Below, piece after piece: positions 22,222 through 27,115 of a stretch of DNA of 64,000 nucleotides. The stretch's first letter is position 1. Each line of letters opens with the position of its first letter. Both the position numbers and the translations under genes were made by a program. Origin of the DNA: Hyphomicrobiales bacterium (GTDB lineage Bacteria; Pseudomonadota; Alphaproteobacteria; Rhizobiales; RI-29). The stretch spans positions 248,001 through 312,000 of the forward strand of contig WGLQ01000004.1 of assembly GCA_016125495.1 (NCBI GenBank), written 5' to 3'. A model generated the notes under the pieces. It saw nothing but the letters and a program-made list of their open reading frames with translations. It was not told the DNA's origin and did not search any database.

Positions 22222-23280
22222 TCAGGCGGCCTTTTCGAGACCCGACGACCACTTGCCCGCCGCCGCCAGACCGTTCATGCGCGCGCGGTGCGAGAACGCG
22301 GCCTGACCGGCGCCGACGTTTGCCGACTTGCCACCCCAGGCCTTCAGCGCGGCCGCCTGCAGCGCGCGGCCGTAGGAGAACGTCAGCTTCCAGGGCAGCC
22401 CCCCGAGCGCGTTCATGGCCGAGAGGTGGGCTGTCGCCTCCTCGTCGGACTGCCCGCCCGAGAGGAATGCGATGCCCGGCACGCTGGAAGGCACGGTCGC
22501 CTTGAGGCAGCGTACGGTCTCCTCGGCTACATCCTCGACGCGAGCCTTCTGTCCAGAGAGCTGGCCCGGCACGATCATGTTGGGCTTCAGCACGATGCCG
22601 TCGAGCGCGACGCCCGCCTCGAAGAGTTCATCGAACACGGTGTTGAGCGTCCATTCGGTGACGCGGTAGCAGGTCGCCATGTCGTGCTTGGCATCCGGCC
22701 CGTCCATCAGCACTTCGGGTTCGACGATCGGCACGATGCCCGCTTCCTGGCAGAGCGCGGAATAGCGAGCCAGAGCATGCGCGTTCGCCTTGATGCACGA
22801 CCAGCTCGGCCGCCCGCCGTCGCCGATCGTGATCACGGCGCGCCACTTGGCGAAACGCGCCCCGAGCTTGTGGTATTCCGCGAGCCGTCCGCCGAGGCCG
22901 TCGAGACCTTCGGTGATCTTTTCGCCCGAACGGCCGGCCATGTCCTTGGCGCCCGCATCCACCTTGATGCCCGGAACGGCGCCCGACGCCTTGATGATTT
23001 CGACGAGCGGCGTGCCGTCGGCGGCCTTCTGTCGCAGCGTTTCGTCGAAGAGGATCACGCCGGAGATGCAGTCGCGCATGGCGGGCGCCCGGAACAGCAT
23101 CTCGCGGTAGTCTCGCCGGTTCGCCTCGGTGCACTCGGCGCCGATCGAGTCGAACCGCTTCTTGATGGTGCCGGAGCTTTCGTCGGCGGCCAGGATGCCC
23201 TTGCCGTCGGCCACCATGGCCCTTGCTATACCGTTCAGCGTTTCGCCCATTGTCGCCATCCCGAGTTCCTGAGTTGACAT
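22222..23280 (-). CDS. fba: Fructose-bisphosphate aldolase, class I
   Basis: Class I aldolase cleaves fructose-1,6-bisphosphate through a lysine Schiff base, in glycolysis, gluconeogenesis and the Calvin cycle. The 352-residue protein has GILAADESSGTIKKRF, ARFAKWRAV (Lys145) and the Schiff-base lysine in GIVLKPNMIVPG (Lys232), and has the length of the animal-type class I family. The start is not certain: ATG 23280 has no clear ribosome site, while ATG 23259 (AGGA seven bases upstream) and 23250 would match family N-termini about as well. It belongs to the same strand block as the ThiE-like gene. Confidence 0.95.
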   Translation of the reverse strand: MSTQELGMATMGETLNGIARAMVADGKGILAADESSGTIKKRFDSIGAECTEANRRDYREMLFRAPAMRDCISGVILFDETLRQKAADGTPLVEIIKASGAVPGIKVDAGAKDMAGRSGEKITEGLDGLGGRLAEYHKLGARFAKWRAVITIGDGGRPSWSCIKANAHALARYSALCQEAGIVPIVEPEVLMDGPDAKHDMATCYRVTEWTLNTVFDELFEAGVALDGIVLKPNMIVPGQLSGQKARVEDVAEETVRCLKATVPSSVPGIAFLSGGQSDEEATAHLSAMNALGGLPWKLTFSYGRALQAAALKAWGGKSANVGAGQAAFSHRARMNGLAAAGKWSSGLEKAA

Positions 23281-24598: not shown

Positions 24599-25264
24599 CT
24601 ACGTCGTCAGGTTGGCTCCCGGGCCAGGCAACGCCGGCACCGCCGTCCCGATCAAGCAGTCGCGCGTGACGAGGCCCTCGAGGCGCTCCGGCGACCAGCC
24701 CTCGGTGCCGGGCGGGCGCAGCGGGAGGACGAAACATCTGATCTCCGCGGTCGAATCGTGCACCCGCACTTCGGTGCCCTCGGCGATGTGCGTGCCGAAT
24801 TCCGCCAATACGCCGCGCGGATCGCGTACGGTCCGGCTGCGGTAGGCGAGGCTCTTGTACCAGGCCGGCGGGATGCCGAGCAGCATCTTGGGATAGCAAG
24901 AGCAGAGCGTGCAGACGACGACGTTGTGCACCTCCGGCGTATTCTCGACCACGCGGTATTCGGCGAGCGAGCCGATGTCGACGCCCATCTCCGCGAGCGC
25001 CTCGCGGGTGCCCGAAAGGAGCCGCTCGCGATAGCCGTCATCCGTCCAGGCGCGCGCGACGACCCGAGCCCCGAGTGCCGGAGAGCGCGTGTCGATCACC
25101 TCCATCTGCGCGCGAATTTCCTCGGGGCCGACAACCCCTTTTTCCACCATCAGCTCGGCGAGCGCCGTGGCCAACACCTCGTAGGGCGTCGCCGGGCCGC
25201 GATCGTGGTCCGGCTGCGGCGGGGCGTGATGGTCATGATCTCCATGATCGTGCGCGTCGTGCAT
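24599..25264 (-). CDS. Nitrile hydratase alpha / thiocyanate hydrolase gamma-like subunit, cobalt type
   Basis: The 221-residue protein holds the metal claw VCTLCSC (118-123). The Thr in CTLCSC is the cobalt-type signature; iron enzymes have Ser. Downstream segments (PAWYKSLAYRSRTVRDPRGVLAEFG) are typical of the family. The two outer-sphere cysteines would be oxidised to sulfinic and sulfenic acids in the mature enzyme. The first 20 residues contain seven histidines interleaved with Asp, an unusual tail that could bind cobalt. The ATG at 25264 has GGAG nine bases upstream and follows the middle gene by 14 bp. Nitrile hydration and thiocyanate hydrolysis cannot be told apart by eye. Confidence 0.88.
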   Translation of the reverse strand: MHDAHDHGDHDHHAPPQPDHDRGPATPYEVLATALAELMVEKGVVGPEEIRAQMEVIDTRSPALGARVVARAWTDDGYRERLLSGTREALAEMGVDIGSLAEYRVVENTPEVHNVVVCTLCSCYPKMLLGIPPAWYKSLAYRSRTVRDPRGVLAEFGTHIAEGTEVRVHDSTAEIRCFVLPLRPPGTEGWSPERLEGLVTRDCLIGTAVPALPGPGANLTT

Positions 25265-25278
25265 GTCGATCGTCTCCG

Positions 25279-25578
25279 TCAGGCCGTCACCAGCCAATTG
25301 CCCGCGATGTCCGCCTCGAGGTGCTCGCCCTTGGGACCGACGTAGTCCGGCCAGAGGTCGTGCTGGCGAAATCGCACCTTGTAGAACACCTGCCGCGGTA
25401 GCCCGGGCTTGTGATAGGCGAGCCGCTCGGGATCGTGGAATTCACCCTGGATCGCAACGACCGTTCCGGTGTGGCCACGCAGGTAGAGCGGTGTCCGGCA
25501 ATGTCCGAGCGCCGCCCTTTCGTCGACCCGGACGCGCTCGCCGATCCGAAAACGGCCCACGGCCGCGGGCCCCGTCAC
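25279..25578 (-). CDS. Nitrile hydratase beta C-terminal-half / thiocyanate hydrolase alpha-like subunit
   Basis: The 99-residue protein corresponds to the SH3-like C-terminal half of nitrile hydratase beta: GRFRIGERVRV, a GHCRTPLYLRGHTGTVV core (in the usual subunit GHxRxPxYVRGxxG) and VRFRQHDLW. It starts at GTG 25578 within a GTGA overlap with the stop of the upstream gene, with GAGG six bases before. The longer ATG-initiated frame (25665) would run 30 codons inside the neighbour. As a free-standing half-subunit it matches the three-subunit layout of thiocyanate hydrolase and toyocamycin nitrile hydratase. Confidence 0.85.
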   Translation of the reverse strand: MTGPAAVGRFRIGERVRVDERAALGHCRTPLYLRGHTGTVVAIQGEFHDPERLAYHKPGLPRQVFYKVRFRQHDLWPDYVGPKGEHLEADIAGNWLVTA

Positions 25579-25979
25579 CGCGCGCCTCGATCGCCATCGG
25601 CCGGCACCCCGCCCGCGATCACCTCGCGCCCCGCGGCCCGCATCACGGCCGCTACCTCCGCGCATTTGGCCTCGATCTCCTCCATGGTGACGATTTCCTG
25701 CTCGATCAGCAGGTTACGGATGGCGCGCACCCATTTCTCGTAGTAGGTCGTCGCATCGTAGTCCTGCTCGCTGTAGCTCTCGATCACCCGCCGCAGCGCG
25801 TCGATCTTGAAGGCACCCTTGCGCGTCGCCAGCAGCATCAGCAGGGCATCGATCCGGCGTTCCCAGTGCGCGAGATCGTGCTCGTGCCGGTCGATCGGCC
25901 CGAAATCGAGCCCTCCGACGTCGTGCACGGCGCGCCCGCCGCTCCCCGAACGCTCGCTGTTGAACCGCTCCGTGCTCAT
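25575..25979 (-). CDS. Nitrile hydratase beta N-terminal-half / thiocyanate hydrolase beta-like subunit
   Basis: The 134-residue protein has the beta-subunit N-terminal signature HDVGGLDFGPIDRHEHD, followed by helices (ALRRVIESYSEQDY, YYEKWVRAIRNLLIEQEIVT) that match the helical part of nitrile hydratase beta. It ends where the SH3-like half would begin, and that half is encoded by the next gene in a different frame with a 4-bp overlap. The ATG at 25979 has AGGAG about nine bases upstream. It is the first gene of the three-gene operon. Nitrile hydratase activator proteins resemble this same domain, so an activator role cannot be excluded by sequence alone, but the gene order argues for a subunit. 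Confidence 0.85.
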   Translation of the reverse strand: MSTERFNSERSGSGGRAVHDVGGLDFGPIDRHEHDLAHWERRIDALLMLLATRKGAFKIDALRRVIESYSEQDYDATTYYEKWVRAIRNLLIEQEIVTMEEIEAKCAEVAAVMRAAGREVIAGGVPADGDRGAR

Positions 25980-26030
25980 GCCGGCGTGCTCCTGGTGTCG
26001 GGCAGGAATGAAATCGACCTGCGGTCATCA

Positions 26031-26068
26031 AACACCAAGAGGCGCCCCGTGCCAACTGGAGCGCCTCT
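26031..26068 (-). terminator. Probable terminator after the GAPDH gene
   Basis: AGAGGCGC (26038-26045) pairs with GCGCCTCT (26061-26068) around a 15-base loop. On the minus strand it is followed by TGGTGTTTG, a short T-rich tail. It separates gap from the nitrile hydratase-like operon 52 bp further on. Confidence 0.5.
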
Positions 26069-26107
26069 CGGCCGATCCGGACGATCGCTTTGCCCGCGGC
26101 GGCGCGC

Positions 26108-27115
26108 TCAGCCGAGCTTGCCCATTGCGACGGCCGTGTCGAGCATGCGGTTCGAGAAGCCCCATTCGTTGTCGTACCAGCTCAGCACGCGGATGAGCCG
26201 CCCGTCGACGACCTGCGTCTGCGTCGCATCGAAGGTCGAGGAGGCGGGGTTGTGGTTGAAATCGACGGAGACCAGCGGCTCCTCGGTGACCGCAAGCACG
26301 CCCTTCAGCTCGCCTTTCGCCGCTGCCGTCATCGCCGCGTTGATCTCCTTGGCCGTCGCCTGACGGGACGGAATGACCTTGAGGTCGATCATCGAGACGT
26401 TCTGCGTCGGCACACGGATGGCGGTGCCGTCGAGTTTGCCGTTGAGCGCCGGAAGCACGAGGCCGACGGCGCGCGCCGCCCCCGTCGAGGTCGGGATCAT
26501 CGAGACCGCCGCCGAGCGCGCCCGCCGCATGTCGCTGTGCGGAGCATCGAGGATGCGCTGGTCGGAAGTGTAGGCGTGCACCGTCGTCATGAAGCCCTGC
26601 TCGATACCGACCAGTTCATGAAGCACCTTGGCGACCGGCGCGAGACAGTTCGTCGTGCACGAGGCATTCGAGACGACCTTGTGCTCCGGCTTCAGCGCCT
26701 GATGGTTGACGCCGTAGACCACGGTGAGGTCGGCCCCCGTCGAAGGCGCCGAGACGAGCACGCGCTTTGCCCCCGCCTCGAGGTGGGCGACCGCCTTCAC
26801 TTTGTCGGTGAAAATACCGGTGCACTCCATGACGACATCGATGCCCATCGCACCCCACGGCGCCTCGGCCGGATTGCGCACGGTGGTGATCTTGATCGGA
26901 CCGGTCCCGACATCGATCGAGTCGCCGTCGAGCTTCACCGTTCCGTGGAATGGGCCGTGCGCTGAGTCGTAGCGAAAGAGGTGCGCCAGCGTCTCGGCCG
27001 GCGCGATGTCGTTGACGGCCACGACCTGGAGATCCTTGCGCCCGGATTCGGCGAGCGCGCGCAATATGTTGCGGCCGATGCGGCCGAAGCCGGAGATGGC
27101 GACTTTGACGGTCAT
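26108..27115 (-). CDS. gap: Glyceraldehyde-3-phosphate dehydrogenase, type I
   Basis: It oxidises glyceraldehyde-3-phosphate to 1,3-bisphosphoglycerate with NAD. The 335-residue protein has the N-terminal GFGRIGRN nucleotide fold, the catalytic Cys153 in [12 protein letters not shown], His180, and the C-terminal [13 protein letters not shown]. Asn35-Asp36 after the second strand favours NAD over NADP. The ATG at 27115 has GGAG six bases upstream; the 110-residue extension to 27445 overlaps the zapA promoter region and is not real. The divergent neighbour is zapA, a frequent alphaproteobacterial pairing around the tkt-gap locus, though tkt is absent here. Confidence 0.97.

Follow-up and report, generated by a model that had tools for sequence, protein, structure and literature searches.

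A gene trio of the nitrile hydratase family with a split beta subunit and no separate activator gene found in its Hyphomicrobiales genome

Introduction

Thiocyanate hydrolase genes stand in the order scnB-scnA-scnC, and a split order of this kind, taken alone, invites the thiocyanate hydrolase label. Three genes in such an order lie on a contig of a Hyphomicrobiales bacterium (WGLQ01000004.1; the window, below, is the whole 64,000-nt stretch analysed). They raise the question of whether the encoded protein converts thiocyanate to COS and NH3, or whether it belongs elsewhere in the nitrile hydratase (NHase) superfamily.

Results

Three adjacent genes with a split beta subunit

The initial annotation had read positions 24599-25979 as three adjacent minus-strand ORFs of the cobalt-type NHase family, with the beta subunit divided between the first two (Table 1). 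Domain searches agree: ORF1 matches NHase_beta_N at 73.8 bits (Pfam cut-off 21.5), ORF2 matches NHase_beta_C at 71.4 bits (cut-off 27.7), and ORF3 matches NHase_alpha at 249.3 bits (cut-off 27.2). The beta chain is therefore split into an N-half (PF21006 in ORF1) and a C-half (PF02211 in ORF2), and the ORF positions together with the domain matches give the scnB-scnA-scnC-like order that had been proposed. Two further details are exact in the sequence: the stop of ORF1 (TGA) and the start of ORF2 (GTG) share bases in GTGA, and 14 bp separate the ORF2 stop from the ORF3 ATG at 25264, for which an in-frame TTG at 25297 is a possible alternative. Read by eye, a Shine-Dalgarno-like purine-rich stretch precedes each of the three starts. 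ORF3 has a His-rich N-terminus and contains CTLCSC (Cys118, Cys121 and Cys123), which we take to be the cobalt-type metal motif; with the three Pfam domains, its presence upholds the family assignment.

Table 1. Positions of the three genes and of the upstream hairpin in the window
Feature	Position	Strand	Length or extent	Assignment	Basis
ORF1	25575..25979	-	134 aa	N-terminal half of NHase beta (ScnB/AnhD type)	PF21006
ORF2	25279..25578	-	99 aa	C-terminal half of NHase beta (ScnA/AnhE type)	PF02211
ORF3	24599..25264	-	221 aa from ATG 25264	NHase alpha subunit	PF02979
Hairpin	26025..26085	-	within the 128-bp GAPDH-ORF1 gap		RNA fold

In a PDB search, ORF1 and ORF2 matched NHase beta at its two ends, as well as ScnB and ScnA. 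Of the 146 distinct loci in the comparison (see below), 57 have the same order of N-half, C-half and alpha, and two further loci combine it with an extra N-type gene. Because the layout recurs in this way, the split is not a sequencing error.

Family scores of the alpha chain

The best PDB matches of ORF3 were alpha chains of cobalt-type NHases, with that of Pseudomonas putida (3qxe_A) at E 7.7e-58, and ScnC (2dd4_C) ranked sixteenth at E 3.3e-49. Sequence identity points the same way, at 50% to the P. putida NHase alpha chain versus 43% to ScnC. Against the NCBIfam equivalog models, ORF3 scored 244.4 bits for nitrile hydratase alpha, just under the cut-off of 249.85, and 198.9 bits for the thiocyanate hydrolase gamma model TIGR03887, under its cut-off of 291.45, and so reached neither. 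The TIGR03887 cut-off is a strict one, since none of the 398 genomes of a phylum-level sample passed it.

Placement of the alpha chain among its homologues

An alpha homologue was present in 99 of the 199 genomes of an order-level sample, the window's own genome included. From the sampled genomes and from named genome contigs we gathered 152 loci, in which the beta-N, beta-C and alpha domains were marked by profiles made from the window proteins. The contigs were scanned with six peptides of the window protein, one of them from the His-rich tail, and the best 80 of 250 loci were kept; since loci were selected in this manner, the group sizes given below are not natural frequencies. Dropping identical copies left 141 distinct alpha chains, or 146 with five plasmid loci. 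Excluding rows that contained X or were shorter than 170 aa left 144, thinning at 78% identity reduced these to 84, and four references brought the IQ-TREE set to 88 alpha chains. The tree is unrooted, and by a group we mean the rows to one side of a branch; support is given as bootstrap/SH-aLRT.

Three main layouts were seen among the loci: alpha, fused beta and an activator-like gene, which is the classical arrangement; N-half, C-half and alpha; and C-half, alpha and N-half. A few loci have the N-half fused to alpha, among them L012:1066-2115, L037:1141-2139 and L087:3154-4152, where the N-half joins the front of alpha in one ORF; in the last two the C-half is a separate ORF.

A phylogeny that set ORF3 against ScnC and classical alpha chains had been proposed with the initial annotation, and in it ORF3 fell outside both; for ScnC, this is the outcome that the initial annotation had named as counting against its own reading. 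The classical chains, recognized by an aromatic pocket residue (see below), make up 33 rows on one side of a branch (100/99). ScnC lies in a group of seven rows (100/94) with L144, L102, L153, L011, L154 and L156, of which L011, L154 and L156 have the order C-half, alpha, N-half. The window alpha chain is among the remaining 48 rows, and its sister is L073 (100/86; 66% identity), from a metagenome-assembled genome titled uncultured Rhizobiales. When the motif columns were removed, the same three groups were recovered with SH-aLRT values of 98 and 99 (99 for the ScnC group). For the counts that follow, each of the 146 alpha chains took the group of the tree row that was its best BLAST match.

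Two pocket positions and the case for thiocyanate hydrolase

According to one study, ScnC Arg136 and ScnB Arg90 reportedly set substrate choice. Arg136 directly follows CTLCSCYP in ScnC; in the alignment its position is taken by Lys126 of ORF3 and by Trp in NHases. The 3vyg chain has Trp there, so that the Arg136-to-Trp exchange has already been made and solved. In ORF1, Leu62 aligns with ScnB Arg90, and Arg63 aligns with ScnB Arg91 and with the conserved Arg of the P. putida NHase beta motif.

Basic residues occupy both positions in all 16 loci of the ScnC group, versus 1 of the 63 in the window's group that could be read. The ScnC group has Arg at the alpha position without exception, and Lys (14 loci) or Arg (2 loci) at the ScnB Arg90 position. 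In the window's group (69 loci), the alpha position is Arg in 63, Lys in 4 and unread in 2, and the ScnB Arg90 position, readable in 63 N-halves, is uncharged in 56, His in 6 and Arg in 1. The aromatic group (61 loci) has Trp in 55 at the alpha position, His in 3, Phe in 2 and Leu in 1; the gene taken as beta in two of its loci, L145 and L136, is probably an activator, and L140, alone in the group, combines Trp with an Arg at the ScnB Arg90 position.

These residues bear directly on whether the trio is a thiocyanate hydrolase. The scnBAC-like order and Lys126, at a position where the aromatic group mostly has Trp, both speak for that activity, as does the lack of a downstream amidase, which the initial annotation had rightly noted: Pfam matched no amidase among the ten neighbouring ORFs, one of which had no match at all. 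However, Leu62 departs from the Lys or Arg found in every ScnC-group locus, the ScnC group excludes the alpha chain with or without the motif columns, and both its TIGR03887 score and its identity to ScnC are low beside the corresponding NHase values. Moreover, the window has no second N-type gene, yet L144 and L151, the loci nearest ScnC, carry one. We consider thiocyanate hydrolase unlikely, and the special tie to that enzyme suggested at the outset is not supported, given the tree, the higher nitrile hydratase alpha score and Leu62.

Several loci of the ScnC group merit separate mention. ScnC-like and ScnB-like Arg residues occur together in L144:5418-7037 (Mycobacteriaceae bacterium 1482268.1) and L151:5406-7031 (Nocardia vinacea), in each of which the second N-type gene lies downstream; the L144 alpha chain is 65% identical to ScnC. 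Both loci are promising candidates for genuine actinobacterial thiocyanate hydrolases. Pfam identified an aquaporin (MIP) gene directly behind the hydratase genes in L108:6974-7747, L115:6901-7662 and L133:6862-7638; one is also annotated behind them in L153:5236-9008 and L156:4439-8114, and L155 has a similar ORF. Annotations near L153, L154 and L156 include cobalt transporters (CbtA/CbtB or HoxN), and L156 also has an annotated cytochrome P460 gene. The order C-half, alpha, N-half, combined with two basic pocket residues, may define an unrecognized thiocyanate hydrolase-like family.

Search for a separate activator gene

The window genome (G000), a draft of 36 contigs that is 99.35% complete, holds one alpha gene and one PF21006 gene. 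The activator model TIGR03889 found no match in it, and ORF1 scored 19.8 bits against this model (cut-off 46). Among 12 chosen genomes TIGR03889 matched in six (G060, G019, G035, G059, G096 and G116), each with a classical operon, and found nothing in G000, G002, G004, G009, G034 and G192. A broader profile, built from 11 rows of N-halves and activator-like genes, was applied to the same 12 genomes. Its sole matches in G000 were ORF1 and, weakly, a stretch inside ORF3 (E 0.002); no separate activator was found, a point that the initial annotation had not raised. G002, G004, G009 and G034 yielded a single N gene each, and every one of the seven genomes with a fused-beta operon yielded two or three N-type genes. 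Homologues of the cobalt/nickel transporters CbtA and NicO are encoded elsewhere in the window genome.

Along with a split locus, G192 has a second locus (L165:590-2697) in which a fused beta and an alpha chain with Arg after CTLCSCYP are followed by an N-type gene. This gene was found by the broader profile and went unreported by TIGR03889, indicating that the latter misses some activators. The L165 layout is intermediate, and it breaks a simple rule that would join Arg, a split beta and the lack of an activator.

The locus comparison follows a similar division, with the proviso that loci L001-L072 have flanks of only about 1.5 kb, so that a more distant activator would escape these counts. 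In the window's group, 62 of 69 loci had exactly one N-type gene, 6 had none readable, and one, L146, which lies beside another operon, had three. At least two N-type genes were found in 58 of the 61 aromatic-group loci, and a second N gene in 2 of the 16 ScnC-group loci.

Two related readings were tried and rejected. ORF1 is not a lone activator: it scored 127.7 bits against a profile of split N-halves, 66.7 against fused beta and 27.5 against activators, and it keeps the beta Arg. Most activator-like genes lack this Arg, although those of L127, L132, L144, L146 and L151 have Arg in the column. Nor does the His-rich tail of alpha replace the activator: each of the three groups has a median of 6 His in the N-terminal stretch counted, with no difference between the window's group and the classical group (p 0.94; 17 and 41 loci, with 5 more of the ScnC group).

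The same evidence bears on a second explanation, that of an ordinary cobalt NHase in which the activator was lost and the beta gene underwent a recent split. The nitrile hydratase alpha score, which exceeds that of the ScnC model, would fit this origin, and a beta carried as two ORFs does occur within the Trp group, in L052, L137 and L138. However, the classical enzymes form a separate group in the tree, and the split layout must be old, since it is common to 57 loci and several phyla are named in their record titles. In addition, Trp is replaced by Arg or Lys throughout the window's group as far as read (67 of 69 loci, the other two being unread). A recent split of an ordinary NHase is thus very unlikely. 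The three Trp-group loci have the order alpha, N, C, N, with a further N-type gene present, and their two-ORF beta could be a second, independent split or the result of frameshifts.

Genomic surroundings

The co-directional gene upstream of ORF1 is GAPDH (Pfam), and the gap between them contains a hairpin with a folding energy of -34.2 kcal/mol (z -4.14). A terminator consensus scan did not call this hairpin a terminator; it is possible that the GAPDH transcript ends there, which would leave the trio as a separate unit. Downstream, a 150-aa ORF without a Pfam match lies on the opposite strand. Taken together, the upstream hairpin and the change of strand suggest that the trio is its own unit. 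The trio is flanked by genes for a class I fructose-bisphosphate aldolase (22225-23280) and GAPDH (26111-27112); a GNAT gene and the unmatched ORF also lie in this interval, with no evident functional link to the trio.

Pfam matches among the ten neighbouring ORFs were to GAPDH, ZapA, fructose-bisphosphate aldolase, GNAT, PPK2 and similar families, and gave no firm pointer to a substrate. ToyJKL is a three-subunit enzyme, and a comparable biosynthetic NHase for a secondary metabolite would share that composition with the window trio, the two being compared by description only, yet none of these ten neighbours is a biosynthetic gene and we find this origin hardly credible.

We also clustered the flanks of 85 loci and listed the 45 largest clusters; some of these were annotated, as were ORFs of four N-half/C-half/alpha loci. 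Synteny was seen within Rubrobacter and within Nisaea, and the clusters that were annotated, a part of those listed, held no partner gene widely common to the window's group. A TctC-type periplasmic receptor adjoins the split trio, at 24-247 bp, in L086, L089 and L092 and, below the cut-off, in L095. Such receptors are very numerous in bacteria of this kind, and none was found among the ten tested neighbours of the window trio; we set this receptor aside as a substrate clue.

Discussion

Among characterised enzymes, the closest parallel in layout is AnhD-AnhE-AnhA from Streptomyces canus CGMCC 13662. It shares with the window the order N-half, C-half, alpha and a genome in which no activator gene was found, and AnhD, like ORF1, is homologous to the beta N-terminus; the two are likened by layout and missing activator. 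The S. canus study (PMC7329996) gives the order anhD-anhE-anhA in a genome without an activator gene and describes AnhD as both the beta N-half and a metal and subunit-swapping chaperone. According to the same study, Holo-AnhD2A brought apoenzyme activity to 54% of that of the holoenzyme, cobalt and DTT alone gave 36%, and AnhA by itself took up cobalt at 0.57 mol/mol (PMC7329996). Because AnhA alone binds cobalt, an N-half chaperone is not strictly needed even in S. canus, and the AnhDEA chaperone model is the work of one laboratory. Acetamiprid, thiacloprid and BN are named there as compounds hydrated by AnhDEA; the study also calls the S. rimosus TNHase, and with it ToyJKL, three-subunit, and reports ToyJ as active alone (PMC7329996). 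A 2026 review has the S. canus enzyme branching with the NHase of Streptomyces rimosus (PMC13243292).

The window trio resembles ScnB-ScnA-ScnC of Thiobacillus thioparus (PDB 2dd4) in gene order, split beta, CTLCSC and a basic residue at the ScnC Arg136 position. It differs in the placement of alpha outside the ScnC group, in Leu versus ScnB Arg90, in falling below the TIGR03887 cut-off and in that no separate activator was found in its genome. With the classical cobalt NHase of P. putida (PDB 3qxe, with P14K) it has in common the alpha family, the metal motif, about 50% identity and the beta Arg; in contrast, that enzyme has a single-chain beta, a separate activator and Trp at the pocket position.

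We think it probable that the trio encodes a heterotrimeric, cobalt-containing hydratase of the NHase family that matures without a separate activator, as AnhDEA does, that it hydrates a small nitrile or cyano compound at its C-N triple bond, and that ORF1 serves as chaperone. This reading draws on the sequence for the three genes, the motif, the pocket residues, the place in the tree and the failure of our searches to find an activator; from these we infer the cobalt, the oxidation of cysteines, the chaperone role and the reaction. The alpha subunit would hold a non-corrin Co(III) through Cys118, Cys121 and Cys123 of CTLCSC, two of them presumably oxidised. ORF1 and ORF2 together would rebuild the beta subunit and supply its conserved Arg residues; as in NHase structures, Arg from the two halves would steady the oxidised Cys. 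By homology, Co(III) would polarise the C-N triple bond or hold the attacking water, and the most likely outcome would be addition of water to that bond in a small nitrile or cyano compound. ORF1 is probably the metal and subunit-swapping chaperone, since no other gene of that kind was found, and the single basic pocket residue, Lys126, suggests that the substrate is polar or partly anionic.

A broader proposal is tentative. The window trio may represent a large and for the most part uncharacterised third branch of the NHase superfamily, between thiocyanate hydrolases and classical NHases, with a split beta, no separate activator and one basic pocket position. Its members might act on a small polar or anionic cyano substrate of their own, neither thiocyanate nor an ordinary neutral nitrile, with the N-half as both subunit and chaperone, and the classical activator might then be a duplicated beta N-half. 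The split-beta, activator-free layout as such, although little studied, has already been published for S. canus, and the window adds another member. In the titles and abstract beginnings searched we found no description of the window's branch, which is weak evidence since most subscription papers lie outside that literature; a 2023 study, which presents trees of NHases and SCNases, may include sequences of this branch (PMC10098168).

For annotation, a test of the two pocket residues combined with a test for an activator distinguishes for the most part between the ScnC group, the classical hydratases and the split group without an activator, and may prove of help. Enzymes of the latter group also lend themselves to the questions of how cobalt can be loaded with no helper protein and whether the beta N-half gave rise to activators.

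One minor observation concerns the N-half itself. Profiles of the N-half weakly match the N-terminal helices of alpha chains, in ORF3 at window positions 25085-25204 (E 0.002), and ORF1 (25578-25979) matches a Bacillus alpha chain at E of about 0.5. These similarities hint at an old duplication that may link the N-half to the N-terminus of alpha.
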